Below are positions 3,492 to 20,729 of a stretch of 64,000 bases of DNA, in pieces; position 1 is the stretch's first letter, and each line of letters begins with the position of its first letter. This DNA comes from Actinopolyspora alba (GTDB lineage: Bacteria; Actinomycetota; Actinomycetes; Mycobacteriales; Pseudonocardiaceae). The notes under the pieces were generated by a model. The model was not told the DNA's origin. It saw nothing but the letters and a program-made list of their open reading frames with translations, and made no database searches. A program made the position numbers and the translations under genes. The stretch spans positions 1 to 64,000 of the forward strand of contig NZ_FOMZ01000015.1 of assembly GCF_900112765.1 (NCBI RefSeq). Reading direction: 5' to 3'.

Positions 3492-3512
3492 CGCGCCGCT
3501 CCTTTCTGCGCG

Positions 3513-6801: not shown

Positions 6802-7514
6802 CACTGCCCTCCGGCGTGTCCTTCGAGGTGGGACGGTGTCCTGCCCGCGGCGCGGCCCGGCCCGACCTCGGCCACGAATTCGCGGGCCAGGCGGGTCCAT
6901 TCCCGGTGTCGACGCAGCATCGCGTGCCCGCTGCCCGGAACCAGCCGGTACCGCGCGGTGTGTCCGGCGCGATTCGCCCGCCGTGCGTACTCGGCGGAAG
7001 CGGGTGCCGAAGTGATGCCGTCATGATCGCCGTGCGCGAGCAGTGTCCGGGTGCCCGCGAGCTGTTCCACCGGATCCGACGGTTCGATCCACGGCGCCAA
7101 CGCGCAGACGTCACCCACGCCGTCCTCGCCCGCGAGCAGCAGGGCCGCGCGGCCTCCCATCGAGTGCCCCAACAACACGATCCGGGCCCGCGGCGAGCGT
7201 CGCCGGATCTCTCGCAGCGCCCAGCGCGCGTCGACCACCGGATCCCGATCCGGCTCGTTCCACCCGCGCAGTCGGTTCCGCAGCAACCACACCGCCGGTG
7301 CTCCGCCGTGCTGCCGGGCCACTCGCAGCGCGAGCCACCACATGCGCAGATAGGCCAGCCGCCAGGGGCGCATCGGCTCCTCGCTGCGAGAGCGGCCGCC
7401 GTGCAGCACCAGTACCGCCACGTCAGCCTCGGCGGATCGCCGGATGCTGTGCAGTACGGCTCCGCGGTTCTCCCCATCCCGGATCACCCGGTCGGCTGCC
7501 TCGTGATCTCGCAT
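6801..7514 (-). CDS. alpha/beta hydrolase
   Basis: A serine hydrolase-like protein of about 237 residues. The nucleophile elbow is GHSMGG, a candidate acid is in AHGDHDG, and the histidine is in PGSGHAML. It has no counterpart in the M. tuberculosis sigK locus but is the first gene of this operon, coupled to the FAD gene by TGATG. The start is uncertain: ATG 7514 or GTG 7568 are both in frame and neither has a clear ribosome-binding site. Substrate unknown; a lipid ester would fit the context. Confidence 0.78.
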   Translation of the reverse strand: MRDHEAADRVIRDGENRGAVLHSIRRSAEADVAVLVLHGGRSRSEEPMRPWRLAYLRMWWLALRVARQHGGAPAVWLLRNRLRGWNEPDRDPVVDARWALREIRRRSPRARIVLLGHSMGGRAALLLAGEDGVGDVCALAPWIEPSDPVEQLAGTRTLLAHGDHDGITSAPASAEYARRANRAGHTARYRLVPGSGHAMLRRHREWTRLAREFVAEVGPGRAAGRTPSHLEGHAGGQ

Positions 7515-7578
7515 ACCCGTTGTTCGGAACCGTCGGGCATCGGGGTTGGTCGGTGTGGCGGCCCGCACAGTCAGGATG

Positions 7579-7619
7579 TTCGGGCAATCGCTTTCGCCCC
7601 CGGCTGCGAATCGCCCGAA
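7579..7619. repeat. inverted repeat between divergent lipid operons
   Basis: TTCGGGC (7579-7585) and GCCCGAA (7613-7619) are perfect complements, and the inner flanks (aatcgc / gcgaatc) continue the symmetry with one gap. The repeat lies between the hydrolase operon (leftward) and the methyltransferase operon (rightward). That position suits an operator serving both promoters, but no regulator is assigned. Confidence 0.4.
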
Positions 7620-7689
7620 ACCGCCGCACGACGTGCCGGATTCGTACGCGCGTGCGGCACTTGATCACGACGATCGTGTGGGAGGTCGG

Positions 7690-9105: not shown

Positions 9106-9923
9106 CCCCGGGTGCCGTGGCCGGTGTGCTCGCGATCGGGCTGGGCGTGGCGTGGGCCACGGTCACCGTCACGTTCCTGATGGCGCGGGTGCGGAATCGC
9201 TACGACACCATCGACACCGCCTGGGGCGCCGGGTTCGCGCTGATCGCGGTGTGCGCACTGGCACTGGTCCGGCCGGTGTCCGGGGACTCGGAGCAGCCCG
9301 GGGTGGCGGGGTGGCTCGCCACGGTGCTCACCGTCGTGTGGGGGGTGCGGTTGGCGCTGCACCTGCACCTGCGCAACCGGACCAAGCCGGAGGATCCGCG
9401 CTACCGGGAGATGCTCGCCAAGGCGCGCCGGTTCCCGGCCGGGCGGATGTACTTCCGGGTGTATCTCACCCAGGCCCTGGTGATGTGGTTCGTCGCCCTT
9501 CCGGTACAGCTCGCCCAGTTCGGCGGTTCCGCCCGATATCCCTTGTCAGCGGCGGTGCTCTGGGCTGGGGTGTTCGTCTGGCTGGTGGGGTTCGCGTTCG
9601 AGACCGTCGGCGACGAGCAGTTGCGCAGGTTCCGGAACCGGCCGGAGAACTCGGGGGCGGTGCTTCGCACGGGGCTGTGGCGCTACACGCGCCACCCGAA
9701 CTACTTCGGTGATGCCTGCGTGTGGTGGGGGCTGTACCTGATCGCCTGCCACCACCAGGTCGGCGTTCTCACGTTGCTGTCCCCCGTGCTGATGACCTGG
9801 TTGTTGGCCCGGGGCAGCGGCAAACCGTTGCTGGAGCGCGACATCGTCGAACGTCGGCCGGACTACGCGGACTACGTCCGGCGAACCAGCGGGTTCGTGC
9901 CCTGGCCACCGAAGCGGGATTGA
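9102..9923 (+). CDS. DUF1295 membrane protein, steroid-reductase-like fold
   Basis: A polytopic membrane protein of about 273 residues in the DUF1295 family (position of M. tuberculosis Rv0446c). Several hydrophobic helices are followed by the conserved C-terminal segment LWRYTRHPNYFGD and SGKPLLERD, which resembles isoprenylcysteine methyltransferase and 5-alpha-reductase proteins. The likely start is TTG 9102, overlapping the methyltransferase stop (TTGA); GTG 9117 is an alternative. The link to the Cfa-type gene suggests a reduction or transfer step on a modified lipid. Confidence 0.82.
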   Translation: MTPGAVAGVLAIGLGVAWATVTVTFLMARVRNRYDTIDTAWGAGFALIAVCALALVRPVSGDSEQPGVAGWLATVLTVVWGVRLALHLHLRNRTKPEDPRYREMLAKARRFPAGRMYFRVYLTQALVMWFVALPVQLAQFGGSARYPLSAAVLWAGVFVWLVGFAFETVGDEQLRRFRNRPENSGAVLRTGLWRYTRHPNYFGDACVWWGLYLIACHHQVGVLTLLSPVLMTWLLARGSGKPLLERDIVERRPDYADYVRRTSGFVPWPPKRD

Positions 9924-9979
9924 CGCCCACGCCGTGGTGGTCGGTTCCCCGTTCGCTCCCGGCCGGAATCGGTTTCGGC

Positions 9980-10813
9980 TCACGTTTCGTGGCGCCGATC
10001 CTCCTCGCGGGGATCGGCCTCCCGCTCCCGATCGGTTCGTTTCGCGCGCTCCACCAGCCTGGAACGCAGCGGAGCCAGTCGCGATGACAGGGTATGGACG
10101 CTGACGAGCCCGATCGTGAAAGTCGCTCCCAGAATCCAGCCCGCCACGACGTCGGAGGGGGAGTGCACACCCAGCACCAGCCGCGAGAACCCGGTGATCA
10201 GCACCAGCAGTACGCCCAGTCCCACGACACCCACGCGTGACCAGCGTCCGCGCAGCACTCCCAGCAGCAGAATCGCCAGCATCAGGTAGACCGCCGCGGA
10301 ATGGGCGGAGTGCCCGGAGGGAAAGGCGAAGCTGTCCTCGGTGAGCGCGTTGGGGGCCGGGACCGGTCTGGGGCGCGCGATGGTGAGTTTGAGCAGGAAA
10401 ACCGTCAACGCCGTTCCACCGGAGGTCAGCACCAGCAGCATCGGGCGCCCCCAACTCCGGGTGGTGGTTCCCAACCAGACGGCGCCGATGACCGCCGCGG
10501 AGAACACCACCACTCCCTCGCCCAGGTGAGTGATGACGTTGAACGCCGCGACCACGGTGGGAGTGCGCAGTTCGGCGACCATCTCCAGCAGTCGACGATC
10601 CAATCCGAGGATCGCGCCGTGCTCGTAGACCTGTTCCGCGAGCTCGCCGAACACGTTGATCCCGGCCACCACGAGTAACAGTCCCAGCACCGGGGTGAAC
10701 CAGGGATACCAACTCGCGAGGTCACGCCAGCTCGCGTGCGACTCGGTGAGACGTTCCTCGTGGTCGTGCCCGTCACCGGAGCGCGGGCTCTCGCCGGTGG
10801 GGGCCATTGTCAT
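9980..10813 (-). CDS. PAP2-family membrane phosphatase
   Basis: A 277-residue integral membrane phosphatase of the PAP2 superfamily (undecaprenyl-diphosphate or phosphatidate phosphatase type). All three signature blocks are visible: KLTIARPRP, PSGHS and SRLVLGVHSPSDV, which supply the catalytic Arg and His residues. About six transmembrane helices are expected. The C-terminal tail is charged (RAKRTDREREADPREEDRR). The ATG at 10813 has GGGAG upstream. It is the last gene before the integrated element, and the tail-to-tail gap with DUF1295 is short. Confidence 0.9.
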   Translation of the reverse strand: MTMAPTGESPRSGDGHDHEERLTESHASWRDLASWYPWFTPVLGLLLVVAGINVFGELAEQVYEHGAILGLDRRLLEMVAELRTPTVVAAFNVITHLGEGVVVFSAAVIGAVWLGTTTRSWGRPMLLVLTSGGTALTVFLLKLTIARPRPVPAPNALTEDSFAFPSGHSAHSAAVYLMLAILLLGVLRGRWSRVGVVGLGVLLVLITGFSRLVLGVHSPSDVVAGWILGATFTIGLVSVHTLSSRLAPLRSRLVERAKRTDREREADPREEDRRHET

Positions 10814-11080
10814 GGATCACACTCCCGGCCTCGGTCGCCGTGATTGCTCGGTCCCCGTGCATTCTACGTGCGCTCGGACTTTCGAGTCCCGGATGTCGGG
10901 CGATAGGCATTCCGTTGGGGTGACGTGCGGCACGGAATCCGAGGAATTCGTGGTTGTCGCCGAGCCGGGAGCTGTCTCCCACCGGAGGGGCAGGAATCGT
11001 TCGGCGGCGGAAGTGCTCGACAATCCGTCCCGCGTGCGATCCGCTTCGTTCTGGTTGGGTTCCGGTCGGGAATGCCTTGG
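10814..11080. other. gene-free chromosomal flank of the element
   Basis: Between the PAP2 start and the stem-loop at 11081 I see no supported gene. The region should hold the PAP2 promoter. Readings through it have poor start sites and no family motifs. Confidence 0.5.
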
Positions 11081-11112
11081 AAAAGAAAAAGTCCCGAGCC
11101 GAATGACTCGGG
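11081..11112 (-). terminator. probable original terminator of tRNA-Lys, displaced by the element
   Basis: On the minus strand a CCCGAG/CTCGGG stem with an 8-base loop is followed by a T-rich run (the complement of aaaagaaaaa at 11081-11090). It directly follows the left att copy in the direction of tRNA-Lys transcription. Without the element it would lie immediately 3' of tRNA-Lys. No gene on the minus strand to its right otherwise needs it. Confidence 0.65.
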
Positions 11113-11118
11113 GCTTCG

Positions 11119-11153
11119 GTGCGCCAACAGGGACTCGAACCCCGAACCCACTG
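11119..11153. repeat. att site, left copy
   Basis: Thirty-five bases identical to 20656-20690. The segment corresponds to the 3' acceptor strand, T arm, variable region and part of the anticodon stem of tRNA-Lys, but the 5' half of the tRNA is absent here. Identity stops exactly at both ends. This is the distal att site created by integration. Confidence 0.93.
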
Positions 11154-11259
11154 TTTGATCGGAGCGGGGGCGTGACCTGCACGGAGGTCGATCCCGCCTA
11201 TTTTGAGCTGCGAAAACAGTAGCGCTCGATCTCATCGTTTCGCGGGTGTTCTCGGCGCA

Positions 11260-11280
11260 ATGTGTACCGAATGTGTACCG
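11260..11280 (+). repeat. paired arm-type integrase-binding sites, left end
   Basis: ATGTGTACCG occurs twice (11260 and 11271), in direct orientation with an 11-base period. The same pair, with one variant copy, is at the right end (20580 and 20591) with the same period and orientation. Paired short repeats inside both att ends are typical of arm sites bound by the N-terminal domain of tyrosine integrases. Confidence 0.7.
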
Positions 11281-11343
11281 CACAACCGGTGCCGCTTTCC
11301 GACGTCTCGTTGCCTGATCGTCTGATCGGTAGTGTGGTTGGTG

Positions 11344-11406
11344 CCTCTTCGCCGAGGTTGCCCCCGCGGGACGCCGTGGGGGCGGTGAAGAGGTTCGGCG
11401 AAGAGG
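11344..11406 (+). promoter_or_regulatory. 5'-UTR hairpin enclosing the ribosome-binding site of the XRE-TPR gene
   Basis: CCTCTTCGCCG (11344-11354) and CGGCGAAGAGG (11396-11406) are perfect complements enclosing 41 bases, with an inner GCCCCC/GGGGGC stem. The right arm contains part of the purine-rich ribosome-binding region that precedes GTG 11418. An alternative partner, GAAGAGG at 11387-11393, could pair with the same left arm, so two competing folds are possible. Confidence 0.5.
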
Positions 11407-11417
11407 GGTGAGTCCTC

Positions 11418-12653
11418 GTGACGTACGAAGGTGTTCCGGCTGGGAACTCGGCCGAGATCGGCGAGCGGGTGCGAATGGTGCGCCGTCGCCGGGGGCTCGG
11501 GTTGGACACGGCGGCCGGTCTGGCGGGAATCTCGAAAAGCTACCTGAGTTTGCTGGAAAACGGGCGGAGGCGTGTCGATTCGCGGGGTCTGCTCGATCGG
11601 CTCGCGAATGCGCTCGGCTGTTCGGTGGTCGATCTCACCGGCGAACCGTACGTGCCCGCTCACGAGCACACCGCGGGTGGAATGCGGGCGGTGCCGGAAG
11701 TGCAGTTTGCCTTGGCGGATTGCTCGTTGGACGACGCTCCGGACATGCCGGTGCGGTCGTTGGACGAGCTGGCCGAGCCGGTCCACCAAGCGCACCGGGA
11801 CTATCTGGACCACGCTCGTTACGATCTCGCCGGGGCCGGGCTCGGTAGTCTGCTTACCGAGCTGCACGTTCACGCGGTCACTGGGGGCGCCGAGCAGTAT
11901 CGGGCGCTGTCGCTGTTGGTCAAGGCGTGCATCGTGGCCTTCGGCGTGACGAAGAATCTCGGGCACCCGGACTTGGCGCTGCAAGCCGCTCAACGTGGCT
12001 ACGATGCGGCGCGCCTGGCCGATGATCCCGCGTTGATCGCTTTCGCCGGACAGCGCCGAGCTCAGGCATTCCAACGGGTAGGAGCCTTCCGCCGCGCCGG
12101 AACTGTGCTGTCCGAGACGGTGGATTACGCGGAGCGCTACGCCGATCCCACGGCAGCCGACACCAGCGCGGCCGAGGGTGCCGGGCTGTTGCACCTGACC
12201 TCGGCCCTGAACGCGGCACGGGCCGGGCAACGCGACGTAGCTCGCTCGCACCTGGCGACCGCGGTCGAATACGGCCAGCACACCGGCGAGCGCAACGCGA
12301 TGGGACAGCACTTCGGCCCGGCCAACCTCGGCGTGTGGACGATCTCGGTGGGAGTCGAACTCGGCGACGGTGCGGCGGTCTACGACCAGGCGTTTCCCAC
12401 GATCGACCAACGCGCACTGGCCAGCGCCGATCGAGTGGCCATGCTGCACGTGGACTCGGCCCGCGCCTTGTCCCAGGAAGGCGGCAAGCGGGACGCCGAA
12501 GCCGTGCGACTGGTTGACAGCGCCGACCGCACCGCACCGGCCCGCATTCGACAAGACCCGGTGACCCGTGAACTCGTGTCCACGTTGTCTGGTCGGGCCC
12601 GTCGCCGCACTTGGGAACTGGACAGCCTCCGGAACCGCTTCGGTATTCGTTGA
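11418..12653 (+). CDS. XRE-type helix-turn-helix regulator with TPR-like C-terminus
   Basis: A 411-residue protein with an N-terminal Cro/C1-type helix-turn-helix (about residues 13-70, LDTAAGLAGISKSYLSLLENGRR). The long alpha-helical remainder resembles the tetratricopeptide sensor regions of streptomycete regulators. Helix-rich parts include AALSLLVKACIVAFG-like and LASADRVAMLHVDSARAL segments. It starts the only rightward transcription unit in the left arm of the element, followed by three small coupled genes. The GTG start has GAGGGG upstream, partly inside a hairpin. It is a different protein from the repressor near the integrase, so it more likely controls cargo genes. Its ligand is unknown. 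Confidence 0.85.
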   Translation: MTYEGVPAGNSAEIGERVRMVRRRRGLGLDTAAGLAGISKSYLSLLENGRRRVDSRGLLDRLANALGCSVVDLTGEPYVPAHEHTAGGMRAVPEVQFALADCSLDDAPDMPVRSLDELAEPVHQAHRDYLDHARYDLAGAGLGSLLTELHVHAVTGGAEQYRALSLLVKACIVAFGVTKNLGHPDLALQAAQRGYDAARLADDPALIAFAGQRRAQAFQRVGAFRRAGTVLSETVDYAERYADPTAADTSAAEGAGLLHLTSALNAARAGQRDVARSHLATAVEYGQHTGERNAMGQHFGPANLGVWTISVGVELGDGAAVYDQAFPTIDQRALASADRVAMLHVDSARALSQEGGKRDAEAVRLVDSADRTAPARIRQDPVTRELVSTLSGRARRRTWELDSLRNRFGIR

Positions 12654-12682
12654 CACGCGGTCAACCCACAATCCGTTAACCA

Positions 12683-12722
12683 CGCATAGCGTCGCTTCGA
12701 TTACTGGAGGTGACGCTATGCG
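12683..12722 (+). promoter_or_regulatory. perfect hairpin trapping the start codon of the 68-residue gene
   Basis: CGCATAGCGTC (12683-12693) and GACGCTATGCG (12712-12722) are an exact 11-bp inverted repeat. The 18-base loop holds the GGAGG ribosome-binding site and the right arm contains the ATG start codon. In RNA this would bury the start codon. In DNA the same symmetry could be an operator, perhaps for the upstream regulator. Confidence 0.6.
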
Positions 12723-12924
12723 AGAGCCCGTGTTGGTGCGGTGTAACACTGTCGAGCACGACGGCACCGAATCACTACAGCTGTCGATCGAGCGCGACCG
12801 GCTGACGATCATCACGCCCACTGTCTACAACCGCACCCGGTGGAGTGCCGAGCAGGCGCGCACCCTGCGGGACACGCTGACCAGGTTGCTGTGCCAGTTG
12901 CCGGGCGGGGGTGGTTCCCGGTGA
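12718..12924 (+). CDS. small protein of unknown function, 68 residues
   Basis: No family is recognised. The protein is soluble, with a beta-rich first half (LSIERDRLTIITPTVY) and a helical second half (WSAEQARTLRDTLTRLL), ending in a glycine-rich tail. ATG 12718 has GGAGG seven bases upstream, but both lie within a perfect hairpin, so expression is probably conditional. It follows the XRE-TPR regulator by 64 bases and overlaps the next gene by four bases (GTGA). The arrangement suggests the regulator and this trio act together. Confidence 0.7.
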   Translation: MREPVLVRCNTVEHDGTESLQLSIERDRLTIITPTVYNRTRWSAEQARTLRDTLTRLLCQLPGGGGSR

Positions 12925-13148
12925 GTCAGCCGCATACGCAGTTGGCGACGTTGCTGCGGCGTTGTCAGTGGATGTTGGACGAGGCCGCCTATAAGCTCGG
13001 CGGTAAGCGGCTTCCGGCGGCCGATCGGCAGGGGCTGGCCGAGGCGTTGGACGAGCTCTCGGCCGCGCTGCGCGAGTACCGCGACGCTCCCACCGACACG
13101 GATGCGGACGAGGACGGGCCGCCCACGATCGTGGACCCGGAGTCGTGA
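12921..13148 (+). CDS. small helical protein of unknown function, 75 residues
   Basis: The GTG start overlaps the previous stop (GTGA). The product is mostly helical (LATLLRRCQWMLDEAAYKL, LAEALDELSAALREYRD) with a very acidic C-terminus (DTDADEDG). No membrane segment or catalytic motif is seen. The repeating Leu/Ala spacing would suit a dimerising helical hairpin. It is translationally coupled on both sides, so it is probably made in fixed ratio with its neighbours. Function unknown. Confidence 0.65.
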   Translation: MSQPHTQLATLLRRCQWMLDEAAYKLGGKRLPAADRQGLAEALDELSAALREYRDAPTDTDADEDGPPTIVDPES

Positions 13149-13372
13149 CCGTGCGGAGGGGCCGGCCCTATCTTGGCCGGCATGGTTTCCGCCCCTGCCG
13201 GCTGCCGGGACACGTGCCCGTGTTGTCCGGTGATCTCGCGGTGACGGGGCCGCAGTCGACGCCCCGGCCGGGCGGTGATCGGCACGCCACCGGCAGCGGG
13301 CCGGTCGTGTCCGGTTGGTCGCGTGACTCGGGCACCCTGGCCCGCGTGTTGGAGGGGCTGCGGCGGCTGTGA
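13145..13372 (+). CDS. small basic protein of unknown function, 75 residues
   Basis: The GTG start overlaps the previous stop (GTGA) and the gene ends the left-arm unit. The product is rich in Arg, Gly and Pro, with a helical end (TLARVLEGLRRL). No family, membrane segment or metal site is recognised. Support comes mainly from the coupled start and operon position, so this is the least certain of the three small genes. Confidence 0.45.
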   Translation: MTVRRGRPYLGRHGFRPCRLPGHVPVLSGDLAVTGPQSTPRPGGDRHATGSGPVVSGWSRDSGTLARVLEGLRRL

Positions 13373-13455
13373 CAGTGGCTCTCACGGATCGCTGAGTGGG
13401 CCATAGAGCGAGAATTGCGCCCCGGTTGGTGTGATGGGCCGGGGCGTTCCCTGAT

Positions 13456-13674
13456 TCATGCCGGGGGTGGTGGGGGCACGCGATGGCGGCGGCGTTCGTG
13501 CATCTCGAATCGCAGTCGGGTCACGAAGTCGCCCAAGCCGCGGTGCTGCTCGGCGTAGGTGGCCCGCTGTTGTTTCCACGCGGCGAACGCCTCGGCCAGT
13601 TCGCCTGTCCATTCGGTCGGGTCGAACCGCTCTAGGTGTTCCGGGGGCGGCTCGTGGTGGTTACGTGTTCGCAT
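13456..13674 (-). CDS. small charged protein next to the terminase gene, 72 residues
   Basis: The ATG lies inside the end of the small-terminase gene (14-base overlap). The product is strongly charged and helical (LAEAFAAWKQQRATYAEQHRGLGDFVTRLRFEMHERRR-type region) with a proline-run tail. No family is recognised. Its position as the last gene of the leftward packaging/capsid block suggests a packaging or assembly role, which is inference only. Confidence 0.6.
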   Translation of the reverse strand: MRTRNHHEPPPEHLERFDPTEWTGELAEAFAAWKQQRATYAEQHRGLGDFVTRLRFEMHERRRHRVPPPPPA

Positions 13675-13945
13675 CGTCGGTCACCTGCAAGTGCGCGAGC
13701 AGTCGGGCCAGTGTGTCGCGGTGTTTGCGGAGCTCGTCGAACAGTCGGTTGACCACCGGCTGTTGGGTGGAGCCGGTCACGATCGTGGACGCGTCCGAGA
13801 GTGCGTCGCGGAGCCGGTCCAGCTCGTCGGCGGTGGAACAGGCTTCGGCCAGGATCGTTTGTTCGGCGGTGGACAGTTCGTAGTCGCGGGTGATCGTGGT
13901 CCACAGTGTGTGGCCCGATCCCGCGAGGTGGTCGGGTGGACGCAC
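13661..13945 (-). CDS. phage terminase small subunit, P27-like
   Basis: A 94-residue protein with the usual P27-family layout: a leading HTLWTTITRDYELSTAEQTIL region, a central LDRLRDALSD helix and the closing QPVVNRLFDELRKHRDTLARLL segment. Small terminases recognise phage DNA for packaging. The GTG at 13945 has GGAGGG five bases upstream and is preferred over in-frame starts further upstream that lack one. No large terminase gene is found near it. If functional, it would redirect another phage's packaging motor to this element's DNA. Confidence 0.75.
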   Translation of the reverse strand: MRPPDHLAGSGHTLWTTITRDYELSTAEQTILAEACSTADELDRLRDALSDASTIVTGSTQQPVVNRLFDELRKHRDTLARLLAHLQVTDDANT

Positions 13946-14240
13946 GGTGTCCCTCCAAAAAACAGGGTTGAGCGGCCCGGACGGGGAAACGGCGACGGGT
14001 CGAAGTGGGGTCACCGTGTCCCTGGTCAACGCGCCGAGGGTGCCCCCGCACCCCTGCCGGGGGCCTGCCCAGGGCGATCGGCGGGTCGAGCGCGGAGCTC
14101 ACACGCGTTGCTGGTGTGGTCAACGCGTGCGAGCTGCGCTTGTCTGGTGCAGGTACAGCAGCGGTACCTAGGCTGTCCTTGCCGTGCTGGACACGAGACC
14201 CAACCTGCGAGCTCAGCACGGTTTCACACCAGGTCACTAG
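13946..14240. other. gene-free stretch between terminase and capsid genes
   Basis: I see no supported gene here. Upstream in-frame extensions of the terminase reading exist but lack a ribosome-binding site. The stretch could hold a promoter for the terminase gene or a packaging signal near the small-terminase gene; neither can be read directly. Confidence 0.4.
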
Positions 14241-14257
14241 GGCAGGGCGTACCTGCC
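14241..14257 (-). terminator. stem-loop just after the capsid gene
   Basis: GGCAGG and CCTGCC form a short stem with a five-base loop seven bases beyond the capsid stop. No T-run follows, so it may be a 3' processing or weak terminator structure that separates capsid from terminase expression. Confidence 0.35.
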
Positions 14258-14263
14258 TATGTC

Positions 14264-15709
14264 TTAGACGTTGAGCAGTCGCAGCGCGTTCGGCACGACC
14301 ACGGCCGAGCCGGTGCGGAAGGCCATCCACATGCCGCGCTGGCCGGTGGGCCGCCCGTTGGTGCCCATGAGGTGCGGCACGAGCTCAACAGTGGTGCCGA
14401 TCCGATCGGCAATGACCATGCCGGACCCGAAATCACCGTAGGCGAGCACGTGGTTGGCCGTGGCCGAGTCGATCGAGCCGTCCATGTGCGAAACCTCGTT
14501 GAGCTGCTTACGCAGCAACGCTCCGGAGCCCAGCTCGGGGAACTGCTTGGCCCCGTTACCGGTTTCCATCTGGGCCATGCTGTTGATGATGCCCAGCGCG
14601 GCGGCCCACTGCGCCCGCGGCTGGAACCGAGGGGGCACCGCGTTTTGCAGCGCGTACACGTCGGCCGCGGCGAACGTGTCGTCGGTGGCCGCGGTGACTT
14701 CCGAGCTGGACCCGGCCAGCGCGGTCACGAATCCGGTGGGCTGGCCGGAGCCGGAACCGAGAGTGTAGGCCTCGGCCTGCAACTGGTCGGCCGCGTCGAC
14801 CAATAGTCGCTGTAGCTCGCTCGTGGCGTCGGTGGCATCCATGCCCCACTCGAAGCTAAACGGCACGAACGCCGATCCTTTGTGCACCGGAACCGTCACC
14901 TGTCCCAGGCTCGGCGACGCGTCGGCGGACTCGGCACCCTCGGCCAACCACTCAGCGGTGACCCCCTCGGAGGTGACGCCGTTCCACGAGTCGGTGGTGG
15001 TCTGCACGACACGGGCCATCCGCCGCAGCGGGTTGGTAGACCCGTCCGAAGACAACTGTATGGCGGGGTCCAGCGTCAGCGGCACCATGTACCCACCCGC
15101 GGAGTCGGTCAGGCTCATGGCCCGCTGCACACTGCGCACCGACCGGTAGGCGTCCAGCTCCGGTGCGGTGAACTCGCGGTGCCCGTGCTCGGGATCGGCC
15201 AGCAGCTTGCCGAAGGCGGTGCGGTAGTGCTCATTGCCGGTGGCTTCGGCCCACCGGGCGGCAAGCGAGCGTTCGGTGTCGGCTCCGGTGGTGACCAGCC
15301 CCTCGACTTTCTCCGCGGCATGGTCGGCCAACTGCCCTGACCGGTGCAGCCCGTCAATCAGCGACCGCGCCCCATCGGTGGCCGGATCACCGGTGCGGCC
15401 ACGCCGGACGGTCCCGATCGGGTCGCCCTCGGCGGTGCGCACCATCTGACCGGTGGTCGGGTCGTAGTCAGGGGCGCCCGACGCCCCGTTGACGAACTTC
15501 GTGTGCGGGTCGCTGAGCGCGGACTGTAGCCGCTGTTCGGCCTCGGCCCGGCGCACGGCCCGCAACTCTTCGTCCAAGTTCTCGATGTCCTCGACACCCT
15601 GATTGAAACGGGTCTCTTGGGTGCGGGTGAGCTTGGACAGTTTCGACAGTCCCTCTAGTTCGGACTGTTTGGTTTCCATCTCGGAGATGATCTGCTGCGC
15701 CTCGCGCAT
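14264..15709 (-). CDS. HK97-family phage major capsid protein
   Basis: A 481-residue capsid protein. The first ~60 residues form a charged coiled coil (ISEMETKQSELEGLSKLSK, VEDIENLDEELRAVRRAEA), like the scaffolding delta domain of HK97-type capsids. The C-terminal two thirds is the capsid fold (SAGGYMVPLTLDPAI, GVTSEGVTAEWLAEGAE, FVPFSFEWGMD, MWMAFRTGSAVVVPNA). ATG 15709 has GGAGGG eight bases upstream and is preferred over ATG 15730. No separate prohead protease, which normally removes the delta domain, is seen. The gene is intact, which argues that the element makes or modifies capsids. Confidence 0.9.
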   Translation of the reverse strand: MREAQQIISEMETKQSELEGLSKLSKLTRTQETRFNQGVEDIENLDEELRAVRRAEAEQRLQSALSDPHTKFVNGASGAPDYDPTTGQMVRTAEGDPIGTVRRGRTGDPATDGARSLIDGLHRSGQLADHAAEKVEGLVTTGADTERSLAARWAEATGNEHYRTAFGKLLADPEHGHREFTAPELDAYRSVRSVQRAMSLTDSAGGYMVPLTLDPAIQLSSDGSTNPLRRMARVVQTTTDSWNGVTSEGVTAEWLAEGAESADASPSLGQVTVPVHKGSAFVPFSFEWGMDATDATSELQRLLVDAADQLQAEAYTLGSGSGQPTGFVTALAGSSSEVTAATDDTFAAADVYALQNAVPPRFQPRAQWAAALGIINSMAQMETGNGAKQFPELGSGALLRKQLNEVSHMDGSIDSATANHVLAYGDFGSGMVIADRIGTTVELVPHLMGTNGRPTGQRGMWMAFRTGSAVVVPNALRLLNV

Positions 15710-15901
15710 GGTAACGGCCCTCCGGGGCATGACGTGCGTATATGTACATCCGCCGTTGACTCACACGGGGCGCCGTCACGGGGCGTCCGGCATGCCGAAG
15801 GGCTGCCCTGACCGTGGGTTGTGCGGAGGTCCCCTGCCAACGGGCCGAGGGGGCCGGAGGGCGTGCGGGTGGTCGCACCGGCGCGCACGCTGCCCCCTAG
15901 T

Positions 15902-16105
15902 TTAGTCGATCGTGTGCAGCAACAGTCCACCCGCAACTGCGAGCACATACCCTTCGGCGGGCACGTACGCCGCGGCCCACGGGCACGTGCCCGCGTGCTC
16001 GACTCCCACCACCAGGATCGGCCCCTCGGCCCCGGTGCTGCGTTGACTCGTGATCGAAGCGGGACAGTCCGGGCAGGCCAGCGCTTGCAGTTCACTCGTG
16101 GTCAT
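15902..16105 (-). CDS. small protein with a CPDC motif, 67 residues
   Basis: The ATG lies within the end of the previous 52-residue gene (14-base overlap). The protein has two Cys near the start (ACPDCPASI) and one in GTCPWAAAYV, with a hydrophobic C-terminal half (YVLAVAGGLLLHTI). A metal-binding or membrane-associated role is possible. No family is recognised. It sits between the replication gene and the capsid gene. Confidence 0.6.
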   Translation of the reverse strand: MTTSELQALACPDCPASITSQRSTGAEGPILVVGVEHAGTCPWAAAYVPAEGYVLAVAGGLLLHTID

Positions 16106-16250
16106 CACTGCCCCCGAAGCGGTCGGTGCACGTACGCAGCGTGGCGTGAAACTCCCGCAATTCCTCATTGATCGTTCGCAGCAGCGCGAGCACGTCGGCT
16201 TCGGTGATCTCACGGTCAGGTGCCACCGGAGCGGGACTCGGATTCGTCAT
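16092..16250 (-). CDS. small helical protein, 52 residues
   Basis: ATG 16250 has GGAGG ten bases upstream. The sequence is mainly one amphipathic helix (ITEADVLALLRTINEELREFHATLRTC) with an acidic end. It overlaps the next gene by 14 bases. It lies just beyond the iteron-like region, so it may start a second leftward transcript leading to the capsid gene. Function unknown. Confidence 0.6.
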   Translation of the reverse strand: MTNPSPAPVAPDREITEADVLALLRTINEELREFHATLRTCTDRFGGSDDHE

Positions 16251-16346
16251 GGTCGGTGTTCCTCCATTCGTCTCGGTTGCGGGGCTGCGCCCTTCGGCGG
16301 GATAGCCCCGGAGGGTGCGAGCTAGGACGCTTCGGGGTAGCCGTCC

Positions 16347-16455
16347 AAGGTGCCAAGGCGCCAAGGTGCCACCCGCGAGGCGTCGTGTGGCGTCTTGACG
16401 TCTTCCCTGGGTACGGCTTCGAGGGGGTGGCATCTTGAGCCAAGGTGTCACCTTG
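16347..16455. repeat. iteron-like repeats beside the helicase gene, candidate replication origin
   Basis: Three tandem 8-base units (CAAGGTGC, CAAGGCGC, CAAGGTGC) occupy 16347-16370. The same heptamer returns as a perfect palindrome, CAAGGTGTCACCTTG, at 16441-16455, ten bases beyond the helicase stop. The region between genes also has repeated GGCGTC motifs. Iterons next to a rep gene are typical of theta origins of plasmids and phage satellites. A transcription terminator reading is weaker because no T-run follows. Confidence 0.5.
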
Positions 16456-16464
16456 CATCTGTCG

Positions 16465-17601
16465 TCAGCGCTCGTCGGTGGGCGAGTAGGTCCATAGCCA
16501 TCCCTTGTCGCCCTTGCGGGTAGTGACGCCTGCCTTGGATCGGGCGCGTTGAATAGTCCGTTTCGCGAAGCCGTCACGCTCCGCGGCTTTGAACAAGTCA
16601 CCGGCGACGGCTTCCCCTCCGCTCTCGGCGAGGTGTGCACGCAGCCATGCGACCGCGTCGTTACGCTCTGCCCGATCCTCCGTAGATGCGGACTCTTGGT
16701 TGAGTAGCTCGCCCACGTCCTGGTCGGTGTCGCCGAGGGGGACGAACCGGCCCACGTCGGTGGGTCCGTCGGCGGTGTCCACGGTGGCCGAGTCGATCCG
16801 GTAGCGGATGCTGGGCAGTCCGGCCGGTGCGATGTTGGTCTTCACCAGCGACAGCACGCACGACCCGTCCTCGGCCTCCCGATCCGCGGCGAACCCGATC
16901 GCCGAACGCACCACCTGGCCGAACTCGGCAGAACCGGCGATCATGTGCAACGGGTTCGGATCGCTGGCCTTACGGAAGTGGGCCACACCGATCACAGCGA
17001 TATTCAGCTCTTGAGCGAGCTGCGCCAGCGGTTCCAAGTACCGGCGCACCGTGCCTTGCTCGGTGAGCTTGGCGCTGCCGAAGGTGGACAACAGCGCGTC
17101 CAACACCACCAACCGCGCCCCGGTGGCTGCGATCTCGTCGCGGAGCGCGTCGAGGTCAACCGCGAGACTGACCGTCGACTCGGCGGTCACACCGTCGCCG
17201 GTGTCCGTCTCGGCGTACAGCCGGTGCACCCGAGTGAGATCGGCTTCGGCCGCGGCGAACCGCGGGGCCAGAGTGTAGGCCCATGAGTCCTCGCTTCCGA
17301 GGTAGAGCACGGGCGAGGGGTGGCCGTACAGCTCACCGGGCAGCGTGCCTTGCGAGACCTGGGAGGCCAGCCACACCGCGGCCTGGGACTTGCCGATACC
17401 GGCATGGCCGACCCACAGGGTCACTTCGCCGAGGGGCAACCGGTCCTGCCACAGGAATTGACGCCGTTTCGGCTCGATCTGGGACACCGGCTGCGACCGC
17501 ACCCGACGCGCCGGGGAGTCGGTTTCTACCCGCCCGGTTTCCGGGTCCACCTGGTCGGCGTCGATCGAGTCCGGCGCGTTACCGGCATACGGCAGGCTCA
17601 C
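16465..17601 (-). CDS. RepA-like AAA ATPase / replicative helicase
   Basis: A 378-residue RecA-fold ATPase. Walker A is GHAGIGKS, Walker B is LVVLDALLS, and a following AVIGVAHFRKA block fits RSF1010 RepA-type hexameric helicases (AAA_25 group). The C-terminal ~80 residues (AVAWLRAHLAESGGEAVAGDLFKAAERDGFAKRTIQRA-type region) look like a small winged-helix domain. GTG 17601 overlaps the upstream stop (GTGA) and has GGGAGGTGG upstream, which decides the start. It is probably the replication initiator/helicase of the element. Confidence 0.85.
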   Translation of the reverse strand: MSLPYAGNAPDSIDADQVDPETGRVETDSPARRVRSQPVSQIEPKRRQFLWQDRLPLGEVTLWVGHAGIGKSQAAVWLASQVSQGTLPGELYGHPSPVLYLGSEDSWAYTLAPRFAAAEADLTRVHRLYAETDTGDGVTAESTVSLAVDLDALRDEIAATGARLVVLDALLSTFGSAKLTEQGTVRRYLEPLAQLAQELNIAVIGVAHFRKASDPNPLHMIAGSAEFGQVVRSAIGFAADREAEDGSCVLSLVKTNIAPAGLPSIRYRIDSATVDTADGPTDVGRFVPLGDTDQDVGELLNQESASTEDRAERNDAVAWLRAHLAESGGEAVAGDLFKAAERDGFAKRTIQRARSKAGVTTRKGDKGWLWTYSPTDER

Positions 17602-17876
17602 GCTGCCACCTCCCCCGAGTGGCCGGTCTCGGCCCACCGGCGCATCCGCTCCGGCGACTCTCGGAGCCCGGCCAGCGGCCCCGGCTCGGCCCGCCGTCGC
17701 TCCAACTCGGCGAACGTGGGGGCCGCCGCCACCCGGTGCCAGTCCTCGGCCGCCGCGATCGACTCCGCCGATTCCGCGGCCCACGCGGCTGCCTGCCACT
17801 GGCGCAACGTGCGGCCGAGCTCGGCATCACGGGCCAGCGCCAGCAACAGCCCCACCGGAACGGCGATCTCAGGCAT
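17598..17876 (-). CDS. small Ala-rich helical protein, 92 residues
   Basis: ATG 17876 has GGGAGGT seven bases upstream and overlaps the previous stop by eight bases. The protein is alpha-helical and rich in Ala, Glu and Trp (AAAWAAESAESIAAAEDWHRV). It is coupled by GTGA to the helicase gene, so it may be a helicase loader or replication accessory, but this rests only on position. No family is recognised. Confidence 0.65.
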   Translation of the reverse strand: MPEIAVPVGLLLALARDAELGRTLRQWQAAAWAAESAESIAAAEDWHRVAAAPTFAELERRRAEPGPLAGLRESPERMRRWAETGHSGEVAA

Positions 17877-18105
17877 CGGAGGCACCTCCCGTGAGATCCA
17901 CCGTGGTCACCCGCACCCGGTAGGCACGCCAGGGGCAGCACCGAGCGGCCTTGACCACGGGCGCCCCTGCCCACCGGTGGACGCTGTGCAGGTGGGTGTA
18001 GCCGCAGAACGGGCACCGAGCCGCCAAGCTCCACCGGGACCGGCCCGGAGCCGGAGCGAACGCCACGGCCCGAGCGGTCATCGTCTCGACTTCGGTCGTA
18101 CTCAC
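17869..18105 (-). CDS. small zinc-type protein, 78 residues
   Basis: The GTG start overlaps the previous stop (GTGA). A CPFCGYTHLHSVH segment followed by RCCPWRAY gives four Cys and several His in zinc-finger-like spacing. Proteins of this kind are common in actinobacterial phage early regions and may bind DNA. It belongs to the leftward early operon starting with the excisionase. Function unknown. Confidence 0.68.
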   Translation of the reverse strand: MSTTEVETMTARAVAFAPAPGRSRWSLAARCPFCGYTHLHSVHRWAGAPVVKAARCCPWRAYRVRVTTVDLTGGASDA

Positions 18106-18449
18106 CGGCCCACCTCCGAGGGTGCGCCCGCGGCATCGGCCGAGGTGGCAGCCTGCGCGGCAAGCTCGCGAAGCTGGCCCGGAGTAAGCCCGGACAACAC
18201 GCGATCACCCACGTACACACTGCCGGTGCACCGGCAATCCGCGGTGCCATACACCGCCGAACCGACAACCACACCGTCCACGGCCCGCTCGCCGTACTCC
18301 ATCAACTCGGCTTGCTCGATACCGCCGCTGTCGGGGACACTCGACTCTGGCGAGGTCATAGCTAGGTGGCCTTCCTGCTCGTAGGCGGTGCCGTTTCCTT
18401 GGCCGGGGCGGCACCGCTTTCTTCTGTCTCGGGACCGGCTGAGGGCCAT
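18102..18449 (-). CDS. small protein of unknown function in the early operon
   Basis: Up to 115 residues. The ATG at 18449 shares a base with the excisionase stop (TGATG). GTG 18452 and an internal ATG at 18359 (with AGGAAGG upstream) are also possible; the first 30 residues are Arg-rich and may not be translated. The core has CRCTGSVYVGDRVLSGLTPGQLRELA, with two close cysteines. No family recognised. Confidence 0.6.
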   Translation of the reverse strand: MALSRSRDRRKRCRPGQGNGTAYEQEGHLAMTSPESSVPDSGGIEQAELMEYGERAVDGVVVGSAVYGTADCRCTGSVYVGDRVLSGLTPGQLRELAAQAATSADAAGAPSEVGR

Positions 18450-18637
18450 CACGCTGCCCCCTCGGTGTGCTGATCAAGCCACTTCTCAACATCTGACCAG
18501 CGGTAACGGGCGTGTCTGCCCACGCGGATATATCGGGGTCCGGTGCCGCGGTACGCCCACGCGGCGAGCGTTCCTACCGGCACGCCGACGTGGTCGGCGA
18601 CTTCCTGTCTGGTGGCCAACGGCTGATCGTCTCGCAT
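18449..18637 (-). CDS. xis: excisionase-like helix-turn-helix protein
   Basis: A 62-residue MerR-like winged helix-turn-helix protein (LATRQEVADHVGVPVGTLAAW, YIRVGRHARYRWSDVEKWLDQ), the usual form of actinophage excisionases. It should bend DNA at the att ends and bias the integrase towards excision. ATG 18637 has AGGG five bases upstream; an extended reading upstream has no ribosome-binding site. It is the first gene of the leftward early operon and is divergent from the repressor-integrase pair, across a repeated TTCATATCCA motif. Confidence 0.85.
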   Translation of the reverse strand: MRDDQPLATRQEVADHVGVPVGTLAAWAYRGTGPRYIRVGRHARYRWSDVEKWLDQHTEGAA

Positions 18638-18650
18638 GTTTTCCCTATTC

Positions 18651-18737
18651 TGGATATGAATAAAACCAATGTGGGGATGGCTGGGATTAGCTTGCACCGG
18701 TTGTTGTGTATTGTCAAACGAGCTGATTTCATATCCA
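18651..18737. promoter_or_regulatory. divergent control region of xis and repressor with paired operators
   Basis: TGGATATGAA (18651-18660) and TTCATATCCA (18728-18737) are perfect complements. Each lies at the same distance before a start codon: read outward, both have TTCATATCCA, five variable bases, then GGGAAA near the ATG. The same 21-base design therefore fronts both divergent genes. This is a good candidate for a double operator bound by the repressor encoded at 18740, acting as the lysogeny switch. Confidence 0.6.
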
Positions 18738-18739
18738 AC

Positions 18740-19390
18740 ATGGGGAAAGAACTACAGCGCGGGCCGACGAGTGACCGCGTGCGACGGAACATCGAAGCGC
18801 TCCGATCGGCACAGGGGCTCAGCCTTGCCGAGCTGTCGCGACGGCTCGAAGCTGTCGGTCGGCCGATTCTCGGCACGGGTATTCACAAGATCGAGCAAGG
18901 CGTACGCCGCGTCGACGTCGACGATCTGGTCGCACTCGCACTTGCGTTGAACGTCACACCAAACCGACTACTGCTGCCCGTGGACGGATCACGAGTTGAA
19001 CTGACCTCGGAAGTCGAAGTTGAACAGCGGCCCGCCTGGAACTGGGCAGACGGAATCCACGCACTCGAAGAAGCGATACAGCGCATACACGGCGAAGCGA
19101 TACAGCGCACACACGGCGAAGCGCTGACGGCCGCGTACGGCGACTTCAAGTCGCACTCCCGGCCAACGGGCGAGGTCGCCCGCGATCAGCACACGGCGAC
19201 CAGAGCGGCGCGTGACGTGCTGGACCGGATTCATCTGATCCTCGGTAATGAAACTCGGATGGCCCTAGAAGACGCGATCCGACAGGCCGTCGAATACGGC
19301 AACTCAAGCGGAAACGCGGCTATGCTCCGCCGCGCCCTGAACCGCCTGAACGCCGAAGTAGAAGACCTGATCGGCGACGAGGGCGACTGA
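18740..19390 (+). CDS. XRE-family repressor of the element
   Basis: A 216-residue protein with an N-terminal Cro/C1-type helix-turn-helix (about residues 13-75, LSLAELSRRLEAVG ... IHKIEQGVRRVDVDDLVALA). A long helical C-terminal region follows and is probably for oligomerisation. The ATG at 18740 lies directly after one copy of the paired operator, and the gene shares a base with the integrase start (TGATG), so repressor and integrase are co-expressed. A 24-base tandem duplication in the middle adds a near-repeat of eight residues. Base composition here is a little less GC-rich than in flanking housekeeping genes. Confidence 0.82.
   Translation: MGKELQRGPTSDRVRRNIEALRSAQGLSLAELSRRLEAVGRPILGTGIHKIEQGVRRVDVDDLVALALALNVTPNRLLLPVDGSRVELTSEVEVEQRPAWNWADGIHALEEAIQRIHGEAIQRTHGEALTAAYGDFKSHSRPTGEVARDQHTATRAARDVLDRIHLILGNETRMALEDAIRQAVEYGNSSGNAAMLRRALNRLNAEVEDLIGDEGD
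19070..19117 (+). repeat. 24-bp tandem duplication inside the repressor gene
   Basis: Two copies (19070-19093 and 19094-19117) differ by one base and are followed by the start of a third. They encode EAIQR(I/T)HG twice, in frame, in the linker between the DNA-binding domain and the C-terminal helices. Copy-number change here would lengthen the linker by eight residues. Confidence 0.8.
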
Positions 19391-20580
19391 TGGCGCGGGT
19401 ATGGATCGAGGACCGATCGAGTCACAGCGACTACAAGCAAGCGCTCGCGCAGGCGAAGACGTCCCGCAAGGCTGCACCGGGACGATGGCGGGTGCGGTGG
19501 TACGACCAGTTCGGCAAGCAGAAGACTCAGACGTTCCGGCGCAAGCCCGACGCCGAGGAACGCCAAGCGGCATTGACGCAACAGCTCGCGGACGGTTCGT
19601 ACCGCGACCCCTCGGCTGCCCGAGTGCGTCTTTCGGAAGTGGCCGACGAGTGGTTCGCGGCACAGCACCACTTGGAGCGGTCCAGCGTCGGACGCTACCG
19701 CGAGCACCTTGAGCTGTACGTGAAACCACGTTGGGGGAGCGTCCGGGTCAACCAGCTACGGCGAGACGACATCGAGCAGTGGATCGGCGAACTCGGCCGG
19801 GACGGGGGCGGGGCGCGTGGCGACGCGCTCAGCCCTTCGGCCGTGCGCGGGATTCACCGCGTGCTGCACATGGTGTTGGCCCGCGCTGTTGAGACGGGCC
19901 GGATCGCGGTCAATCCGGCCAAGGGTGTCTCGTTGCCGCGGGTGGCGAGCTCGGAGCACGTCTACCTTGATTACGAACAGCTGGACCGTCTGGCCGAGGC
20001 CGCCGGAACATACCGGCTGTTGATCTACCTGCTCGGTTTCACCGGCCTGCGTTGGGGCGAAGCCTCGGCGGTGCGAGCGGGCCGGGTGGACGTGGACGCA
20101 CGTCGGGTGCACGTGGTCGAAGCTTTCGCCAAGGATTCGGCGGAGACGTACCTCACCGACCCGAAGACCCACGAGCGGCGCACCGTTCCACTTCCCGCGT
20201 TCCTGGCCGACGAGCTGCGCCCGGTGGTTTCCGGGCAGCGCTCCGAGACGTTCGTTTTCACCAGCCGCCGAGGGCAGCCGTTGCGGTACGCGAACTTTCG
20301 CTCGCGGGTGTTCGCCCCCGCGGTTCGGGAAGCCAAGCTCGATCACCTGGACGGGCTGAGTCTGCACAGCTTGCGGCACACTGCGGCGTCGCTGGCGATC
20401 GCTGCCGGGGCGGACGTGAAGGTGGTCCAACAGATGCTCGGCCACAAGACCGCCACCATGACGCTGGACACCTACGGACACCTGTTCCCGGATCGGCTGG
20501 ACGAAGTAGCGGATCGGATGGACGCGGCCCGTTCACGAGCACTGGCACCGGCCGATGAAACGGGGGACGATTCCGTGTGA
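19390..20580 (+). CDS. int: tyrosine-family integrase
   Basis: A 396-residue site-specific recombinase. It has an N-terminal arm-binding region, a SAM-like core-binding domain (LSEVADEWFAAQHHLERSSVGRY) and a catalytic domain. Catalytic residues visible are Arg in TGLRWGE, Lys in DPKTHERR, the HSLRHTAAS block, and the final His and Tyr in GHKTATMTLDTYGHLF. The start is coupled to the repressor (TGATG). The gene ends 75 bases from the tRNA-Lys att site, the usual orientation for tRNA-targeting integrases. It should act on the 35-bp att repeats with the paired arm sites. Confidence 0.95.
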   Translation: MARVWIEDRSSHSDYKQALAQAKTSRKAAPGRWRVRWYDQFGKQKTQTFRRKPDAEERQAALTQQLADGSYRDPSAARVRLSEVADEWFAAQHHLERSSVGRYREHLELYVKPRWGSVRVNQLRRDDIEQWIGELGRDGGGARGDALSPSAVRGIHRVLHMVLARAVETGRIAVNPAKGVSLPRVASSEHVYLDYEQLDRLAEAAGTYRLLIYLLGFTGLRWGEASAVRAGRVDVDARRVHVVEAFAKDSAETYLTDPKTHERRTVPLPAFLADELRPVVSGQRSETFVFTSRRGQPLRYANFRSRVFAPAVREAKLDHLDGLSLHSLRHTAASLAIAAGADVKVVQQMLGHKTATMTLDTYGHLFPDRLDEVADRMDAARSRALAPADETGDDSV

Positions 20581-20600
20581 TGTGTACAAAATGTGTACCG
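20580..20600 (+). repeat. paired arm-type integrase-binding sites, right end
   Basis: ATGTGTACA (20580) and ATGTGTACCG (20591) repeat with an 11-base period, in the same orientation and period as the pair at the left end. The first overlaps the last base of the integrase stop codon. The variant first copy contains the palindrome TGTACA. Confidence 0.68.
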
Positions 20601-20601
20601 C

Positions 20602-20641
20602 AAAAAATTCGGACGGCTTCGGATTTCTCCAAAACCGTCCG
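20602..20641 (-). terminator. element-borne terminator now serving tRNA-Lys
   Basis: CGGACGG (20610-20616) and CCGTCCG (20635-20641) form a perfect 7-bp stem with an 18-base loop. On the minus strand it is followed by a T-run (complement of 20602-20607). It lies 15 bases beyond the tRNA-Lys 3' end and also faces the integrase, so it can stop tRNA transcription from entering the element. Confidence 0.65.
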
Positions 20642-20655
20642 TTACCTGGGAAAAT

Positions 20656-20690
20656 GTGCGCCAACAGGGACTCGAACCCCGAACCCACTG
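20656..20690. repeat. att site, right copy within tRNA-Lys
   Basis: Identical over 35 bases to 11119-11153. It covers the 3' half of tRNA-Lys up to the anticodon stem, so integration left a complete tRNA gene at this end. The crossover point within the 35 bases cannot be fixed from one genome. Confidence 0.93.
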
Positions 20691-20729
20691 ATTAAGAGTC
20701 AGTTGCTCTGCCGCTTGAGCTATTGGCGC
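20657..20729 (-). tRNA. tRNA-Lys (anticodon CTT)
   Basis: A 73-base tRNA with perfect GCGCCAA/TTGGCGC acceptor stem, D arm GCTC/GAGC, anticodon stem ACTGA/TCAGT with loop CTCTTAA (anticodon CTT), a TTCGAGT T-loop and discriminator A. CCA is not encoded. The 3' half is supplied by the element's att site. A candidate -10 (TAAAGT, minus strand, 20789-20794) lies about 60 bases upstream. Confidence 0.95.

Follow-up and report, generated by a model that had tools for sequence, protein, structure and literature searches.

Mycobacterial regions that carry an integrase together with a major capsid protein (MCP) are regarded as candidate phage-inducible chromosomal islands (PICIs), and phiRv1 and phiRv2 have been called PICI-like, in the available part of an account according to which mobilisation of these candidates is yet to be shown (PMC10654092). 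phiRv1 measures 9.3 kb and phiRv2 10.8 kb, and among phiRv relatives of 10-12 kb some carry portal and terminase genes and some protease and capsid genes alone, as given in the accessible part of the source (PMC3986857). Capsid-forming PICIs (cf-PICIs) are defined by a full head set, and Streptomyces capsid satellites have been described, in the open portion of a further paper (PMC10690885); many actinobacterial prophage elements below 15 kb are supposed to be satellites, to judge from an extract of another (PMC10023795). Here we analysed a 64,000-nt stretch of Actinopolyspora alba (contig NZ_FOMZ01000015.1; hereafter the window), which contains a 9,575-bp element in a tRNA-Lys gene that encodes an HK97-type MCP and a small terminase (TerS). 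We consider it probable that this element is an integrated phage satellite of the mycobacterial candidate-PICI kind, which would build its own small shell and take portal, large terminase (TerL), protease and tail from a helper phage.

A mobile element found in two species

The element spans positions 11119-20693 at the 3′ end of tRNA-Lys(CTT), which ARAGORN places on the minus strand at 20656-20729. Its attachment (att) copies form a 38-bp direct repeat, 97% alike: attL (11119-11156) is a partial copy of the tRNA 3′ end, and attR (20656-20693) lies inside the tRNA gene and makes up its 3′ end. Chance repeats of exact 35-mers in the window are expected at ~2e-12, and these repeats correct by 3 bases the right end that the original prediction had set at 20690. 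Just within each element end lies one member of an inner repeat pair (11260-11285 and 20580-20605, 88% alike); a similar pair (87%) occurs at both ends of the second copy described below, and the two repeats are candidate arm-type sites of the integrase. A query made of the two joined element flanks matched at least partly in all 10 genomes of the genus on which it was run. In four of them (G047, G049, G050 and G052) it matched from base 6 to its end in a single piece, so that the tRNA-Lys site is unoccupied there; the flanks in G050, at 97% and 95% identity, join over a single 38-bp copy. Near a tRNA-Lys(TTT) gene in G046 (L213:4633-12032) we observed a fragment resembling att and part of a helicase with 77-79% identity to that of the element, apparently a decayed sister element, and other integrated genes adjoin the same tRNA-Lys(TTT) gene in three further species (L214 in G051, L215 in G053 and L216 in G048).

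The genes are arranged in three blocks. A plus-strand block at the right end holds a tyrosine integrase (19390-20580; PF00589 8.7e-24; phrog_1 6.5e-73; 93% amino acid identity in G047, a genome of another species of the same genus) and an XRE repressor (18656-19390; PF01381 3.4e-5, just above the cut-off). The minus-strand block comprises an excisionase-like HTH_17 protein (xis, 18449-18697; PF12728 1.2e-8; phrog_66 2.3e-9; an open frame with an ATG likely inside), small open reading frames (ORFs), an AAA_25 helicase (16465-17601; PF13481 8e-26; phrog_10729 3e-42), gB, the MCP (14264-15730; PF05065 2.6e-36; TIGR01554 1.5e-42, with the NCBIfam name 'phage major capsid protein'), TerS of the P27 type (13661-14029; phrog_1496 3e-19; TTG start as given, a later start being possible) and gA. 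The left-end block, on the plus strand, consists of two small ORFs and an XRE-TPR regulator. In Pfam (E≤0.1) and PHROGs (E≤0.1, 0.01 in one scan) the scanned element ORFs matched no family of portal, TerL, protease, tail or lysis proteins. Both halves of the original prediction, namely that the element holds integrase, xis, repressor, helicase, capsid and P27-type TerS and that it holds none of the five missing functions, are borne out by the Pfam, PHROGs and NCBIfam searches.

Relatives of the MCP (E≤1e-10) were present in 17 of 390 family genomes and, in a sample of the phylum, relatives were present in 10 of 396, the window's own genome being included in each count. In G047, relatives of all 13 queried element genes surround the MCP, which is 97% identical to that of the window, and the element DNA aligns in two blocks at 92% and 90% identity. 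This copy is inserted in tRNA-Arg(ACG) between perfect 35-bp repeats 9,552 bp apart, and the tRNA-Lys of G047 is empty although an element copy is present at the other tRNA. The MCP, TerS, helicase and integrase frames are open in the G047 copy too. Ratios of coding to silent change (dN/dS) between the two copies, calculated with a Nei-Gojobori script, were 0.11 for mcp, 0.145 for terS (resting on 5 silent and 2 coding changes), 0.076 for the helicase, 0.138 for the integrase and 0.046 for the XRE-TPR regulator. These values indicate that mcp, terS, helicase and integrase are under purifying selection; for gE (0.67) and gA (0.59) constraint is not clear. The small protein gB shows 6 silent changes over 66 aligned codons, its last residue being the sole one to differ.

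The silent divergence (dS) of 11 of the 13 measured element genes was 0.05-0.30, and that of xis and a 68-residue ORF ~0.5, compared with 0.47-0.61 for five chromosomal genes near the G047 empty site. Divergence is thus lower in most genes of the element than in the chromosome, which points to transfer of the element between species after the species had split. The N-terminal DNA-binding part of the repressor differs between the two copies while its C-terminal rest is nearly identical, which likely reflects a change of immunity. The presence of a copy in a second species, the low dN/dS of mcp, the low divergence and the repressor swap all indicate a mobile, selected unit and not a product of decay.

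A capsid lineage and the size of its carriers

A portal gene (PF04860) stands beside the MCP in 11 of the 17 family genomes, and none was found beside it in the other six (G000, which is the genome of the window, G047, G334, G301, G279 and G280). Pattern scans with the single MCP returned no relative in genome contigs and one weak relative in viral contigs; with an alignment of seven MCPs as query, 61 genome-contig loci were obtained, together with viral-contig loci of which 80 of 198 were kept. Among 57 records from a plasmid search, none reached 60% identity to the MCP. Six-frame ORFs of the loci were then scanned with home-made profiles of TerL, portal, protease, TerS, helicases and integrases. 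The MCP tree has 101 rows (56, 39 and 6 on recount), from which duplicates of a locus (L020, L021, L025, L032, L047, L049 and L050), broken MCPs (L091, L111 and L116), 57 of the 80 viral-contig loci and rows below 150 bits were left out.

This tree contains a single clade of 40 rows, made up of 36 integrase-bearing rows without portal or TerL and 4 short or contig-edge loci, and none of the 56 phage or prophage rows falls within it. Support by the Shimodaira-Hasegawa-like approximate likelihood ratio test (SH-aLRT) was 89 for all 40 rows, 95 for 38 and 99 for 35. The members come from 14 named actinobacterial families and from unnamed sources or metagenome-assembled genomes (MAGs), with Mycobacteriaceae accounting for 13 rows. 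In a careful tree of 62 rows (32 clade rows, 28 phage rows of which three were added later, L024 and L102), the satellite side was supported at 99/95. Two clade elements, L060 and L071, lie in MAG contigs labelled Deltaproteobacteria and Chloroflexi; this is likely misbinning, as the L060 MCP is close to a Mycolicibacterium MCP (L056).

Within 9 kb of the MCP the home-made profiles detected a portal or TerL in 0 of the 40 clade members, an integrase in 35, a protease in 15, a helicase of one of two types in 13 and a TerS in 8. Among these loci 24 were taken to extend at least 7 kb to each side, including the window, where the element alone was scanned; L057, whose MCP adjoins an assembly gap, was counted as integrase-bearing through a recombinase >8 kb from the MCP, and L048, L060, L071, L080, L083 and L117 were judged by home-made profiles alone. 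L117, which has the same MCP as the Skermania locus L073, was alone among the 80 viral contigs in having an integrase and neither TerL nor portal, and most of the others carry TerL or portal beside the MCP. Pfam assigned 8 capsids, 7 integrases, 3 prohead proteases and 1 TerS among 75 ORFs of 8 bounded members (75 of the 79 called, the strict caller having missed genes in L059 and L066), and no portal, TerL or tail family appeared among all 20 Pfam families in these ORFs; Pfam was relied on there, the PHROGs result comprising the best 25 of 48 families.

The search was extended to the host genomes. PF04860 was absent from 27 of 32 and lay elsewhere in the genome in 5, the PF05133 portal was present in 9 of 34, including G000 and G047, and TerL_ATPase (PF03354) was present in 5 of 34, an undercount since the TerL of G000 was missed. 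Where checked, matches to these three families in clade genomes were on contigs other than that of the MCP. A TerL survey by phrog_2 was uninformative, as it matched in all 17 genomes and also in 11 of 14 controls.

The AlphaFold2 model of the MCP (mean predicted local distance difference test score (pLDDT) 82.4; predicted template modelling score 0.68) has an N-terminal coiled coil with helices at residues 3-29 and 36-73 (pLDDT ~93-95 over residues 11-60), a poorly predicted linker at ~77-113, and then helices and the HK97-type mature part. Together with the Pfam and TIGR01554 matches, it confirms the intact capsid gene with a coiled-coil N-terminus that had been proposed from the letters. 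An MCP profile matched 9lw6 (3.5e-127), a gene transfer agent capsid (2.7e-20) and 9gyi (2.7e-15) in the PDB, and the nearest folds by Foldseek include those of phage Mycofy1 (44% identity), the gene transfer agent (~23%) and cf-PICI EcCI2 (19%). The mature part is alike in length in satellites (277-288 residues) and sister phages (278-286). A linker motif, RNPWD, is found in 11-13 of 13 phage rows; 34-35 of 38 satellite rows are gapped at its place, and the window MCP has other letters at this position.

Fourteen tyrosine-integrase members of the clade are bounded by direct repeats and measure 8,655-10,077 bp (mean 9,425, standard deviation 407), as found by att searches of ~10 kb either side of the MCP and, in a second search from which long elements could escape, of just 900 bp past the integrase and 6 kb past the MCP. 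In 11 of the 14, ARAGORN detected the tRNA gene (Lys, Arg, Val, Met, Trp, Leu or Pro); no tRNA was called in the loci of L061, L068 and L079. L068 was bounded by a 17-bp repeat (9,126 bp) in preference to a 23-bp one (8,934 bp), and weaker repeats of 15-16 bp in L058, L064, L067 and L087 were left uncounted. The L079 element (L079:1-9560) is itself a whole contig of Mycobacterium ostraviense (NZ_NKRE01000193.1; 9,560 bp) whose ends are 27-bp direct repeats resembling the 3′ end of a tRNA; the contig may be a circle that had excised, or the assembly may have broken at att. A T=7 capsid holds ~40 kb of DNA, from which volume scaling gives ~11 kb for T=3; the uniform size of ~9.4 kb therefore leads us to predict a shell near T=3.

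A proposed satellite cycle, its rivals and further features

In the cycle that we propose, the repressor would keep the element silent in tRNA-Lys until infection or induction of a helper phage relieves repression. Integrase and xis would then excise the element and the helicase would support its replication, the MCP would assemble into a small shell fitting ~9-10 kb, and TerS would direct element DNA to that shell. For portal, connectors and head protease, as for large terminase, tail and lysis, the element would depend on the helper. A satellite is preferred to a prophage remnant because the same gene set occurs in two species, its genes are under purifying selection, its MCP belongs to a portal-less group and the members are uniform in size.

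Candidate helpers are at hand in both genomes. The idea that G000 and G047 are devoid of a helper prophage, raised by the lack of a PF04860 portal, was dropped, as PF05133 (SPP1-type) portals lie inside one full-size prophage in each. That of G000, near 62-95 kb of C31 (L223 and L224; C31:62001-98000), encodes TerL and the SPP1-type portal and, as read from gene order, probably a scaffold and a different capsid. The prophage-like stretch of G047 (L225 and L226; C1:2168001-2200000) has 50-51% GC in an otherwise GC-rich genome and is likely a recent arrival; the gene caller found almost no genes there and plain ORFs were listed. The two prophages share no DNA match at E 1e-10 and 27-43% protein identity in six genes. 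Either of them, or neither, could be the helper.

Several observations weigh against this account. The element is known from its genes, and its packaging is what we infer from them. The long N-terminal domain of the MCP is normally cut by a protease in HK97-type heads; here the domain is kept and no protease gene was found in the element. The match of TerS to PF05119 (0.0056) is below the family cut-off, and library searches can miss a real TerL: phrog_2 and PF03354 both missed that of the G000 prophage, which our own profile detected at 3.5e-58. The MCP profile matches neither resident prophage's capsid, in G000 or in G047, so that a helper portal may or may not fit. The module is not constant across the clade, with TerS seen in 8 of 40 loci and protease in 15, some loci being cut short. 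Finally, three portal-less elements have an MCP outside the clade, L024 and L102 among the phages (in a phage sister group) and L055 on a long branch, and for this reason capsid elements that lack a portal probably have more than one origin. One of these, L024 in G279 (~3305-18029), spans 14.7 kb at tRNA-Leu, has no portal and carries MCP, protease and HNH genes, and the place of its MCP among phages suggests a separate origin of the same lifestyle.

Of the other explanations, the one that survives best is that the satellite MCP acts on the helper capsid in the manner of the remodelling proteins of Staphylococcus aureus pathogenicity islands (SaPIs), by co-assembling with it or poisoning it. 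Small mixed heads or interference would result, and TerS would redirect packaging. Most clade elements would be unable to complete a head alone, because 25 of the 40 loci have no visible protease (some of them cut short) and none has a portal, and over the part that matched, satellite MCPs still share 43-46% identity with the best of the known phage MCPs. The separate lineage of full-length MCPs and the uniform size fit an own shell at least equally, and we regard co-assembly as unlikely, though deserving of some weight.

That the element is a decaying prophage which kept capsid and TerS by chance would account for its incomplete structural set, and decayed relatives are known (the G046 helicase remnant and L091, a relative with a broken MCP). 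Against it stand equal gene content in two species and at two tRNA sites, an mcp dN/dS of 0.11, a portal-less clade and uniform size, which make simple decay very improbable; the original prediction had argued against it from the open, overlapping genes. It had also named the occurrence of the element in related strains as the remnant of a full prophage as a finding that would count against a satellite, and in the 9-kb survey with the home-made profiles no clade member shows a portal or TerL. A host-adopted particle of the gene-transfer-agent type or a self-sufficient tailless virus, suggested by the gene-transfer-agent capsids among the nearest solved folds, is just as hard to credit: att repeats, an integrase and xis, a patchy distribution and traces of recent transfer are the marks of a mobile element, and no TerL or portal gene was found in it.

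Beyond this single element, we see an even balance of arguments for and against the broader proposal that actinobacterial satellites of 9-10 kb form a guild across the phylum, served by a single old capsid lineage confined to satellites. If it is true, members of the guild contribute the shell protein, in some cases with protease and TerS, and rely on helpers for portal, motor and tail. An element that has an integrase and no structural gene but a capsid gene is readily mistaken for a prophage remnant, and the capsid tree separates such elements from phages by sequence. The two near-copies in sister species show an element that is moving and has changed its tRNA site and, probably, its immunity.

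The remaining features of the element are mostly small genes. The XRE regulator of the left block (11418-12653, plus strand; PF13560 2.3e-13; phrog_5823 1.4e-56) has a long TPR-like C-terminus and in NCBIfam weakly resembles a TPR regulator of the NsdA type. It is followed on the same strand by a called ORF of 68 residues (12718-12924; 79% amino acid identity in G047) and an ORF of 75 residues (12921-13148; 91%), which gave no Pfam, NCBIfam or PADLOC match and in PHROGs reached 0.059 and 0.053, respectively, to families of unknown function. The minus-strand products gA (13456-13674, 72 residues, overlapping terS; 93% over 59 codons in G047), gB (15902-16105; 66 of 67 residues identical), a 52-residue ORF with a weak gene-call score (16092-16250), gC (17598-17876, 92 residues; 92%), gD (17869-18105, 78 residues with Cys pairs; 87%) and gE (18102-18359, 85 residues; 91%) had no Pfam or PHROGs match. 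A PADLOC scan of the element for defence genes returned HTH-type and control-protein matches alone, to the two regulators. In the gap between mcp and terS, aligned with that of the G047 copy, lies a conserved, near-perfect palindrome (14096-14135) with one imperfect pair in each copy (the window, and the gap before terS in L019) and a hairpin fold z of -3.4 in the window and -3.0 in the G047 copy, these two copies being compared; it is a candidate packaging (pac/cos) or operator site.

Comparison with known systems

The element differs from several described kinds of capsid-bearing or capsid-using elements. Classical PICIs such as SaPIs redirect packaging through TerS or cos and remodel the helper capsid with no capsid gene of their own; here TerS is present but an MCP is encoded. 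With cf-PICIs the element shares a satellite-encoded MCP of HK97 fold, and EcCI2 (9gyi) is among its nearest folds. cf-PICIs, in the accessible part of their description, carry a whole head and packaging set (PMC10690885), unlike the present element, in which MCP and TerS alone were found and portal, TerL, protease and connectors were not. The Streptomyces satellites MulchRoom and MiniFlayer are likewise actinobacterial satellites with their own MCP; unlike the window element they encode TerL, portal and scaffold, according to the same partial source (PMC10690885). Full-prophage relatives and lost constraint, the marks of a prophage remnant, are not what the searches and the selection analysis returned.

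Among phages, the nearest MCPs found are those of the Gordonia phage Eyre group and Mycofy1 (9lw6), at 43-45% identity over the matched part. These are full phages; Eyre, ThankyouJordi and Xula have MCPs that lie outside the satellite clade, and Mycofy1 is outside the tree sampling. The 11-kb Mycolicibacterium phage records JSForest1/2 and Maddie1 resemble the element in having a related TerS (37% identity), an integrase and an MCP, and JSForest1 and Maddie1 have no annotated large terminase, portal or protease. They differ in their 273-residue MCP, unmatched by the MCP profile, their serine integrase and their annotated adaptor, stopper and tape measure. These records indicate that small capsid genomes are recovered as phages; a literature search on them found no paper.

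The closest likeness is to the Mycobacterium candidate PICIs, including phiRv1 and phiRv2, which combine an integrase and an MCP and are not full prophages; some of them carry a helicase, terminase or other head gene, and tRNA sites are given for the tyrosine-integrase examples, in the available portions of the two accounts (PMC10654092; PMC3986857). The window element likewise joins integrase and MCP in one non-prophage element of 9,575 bp, with a tyrosine integrase and a tRNA-Lys site. The resemblance to phiRv1 and phiRv2 noted in the original prediction therefore holds for gene content and size as far as these are published in part, the phiRv MCPs being outside the tree sampling. Unlike those candidates, the element has a Pseudonocardiaceae host, pairs TerS with an MCP and lacks a protease, and the clade of its MCP spans 14 named families. 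No paper on a phylum-wide satellite capsid clade was found among the matches listed, subscription literature being mostly outside the search. Should the guild exist, its strategy would be a third one, intermediate between that of SaPIs, by which a stolen shell is remodelled, and that of cf-PICIs, by which the entire head is made, and it poses a testable question: can a shell-only satellite get a helper portal and motor to fill a shell that is not the helper's? All in all, the element is most likely a satellite of a published but little-tested kind, for which the evolutionary case is now stronger than the sequence alone allowed.

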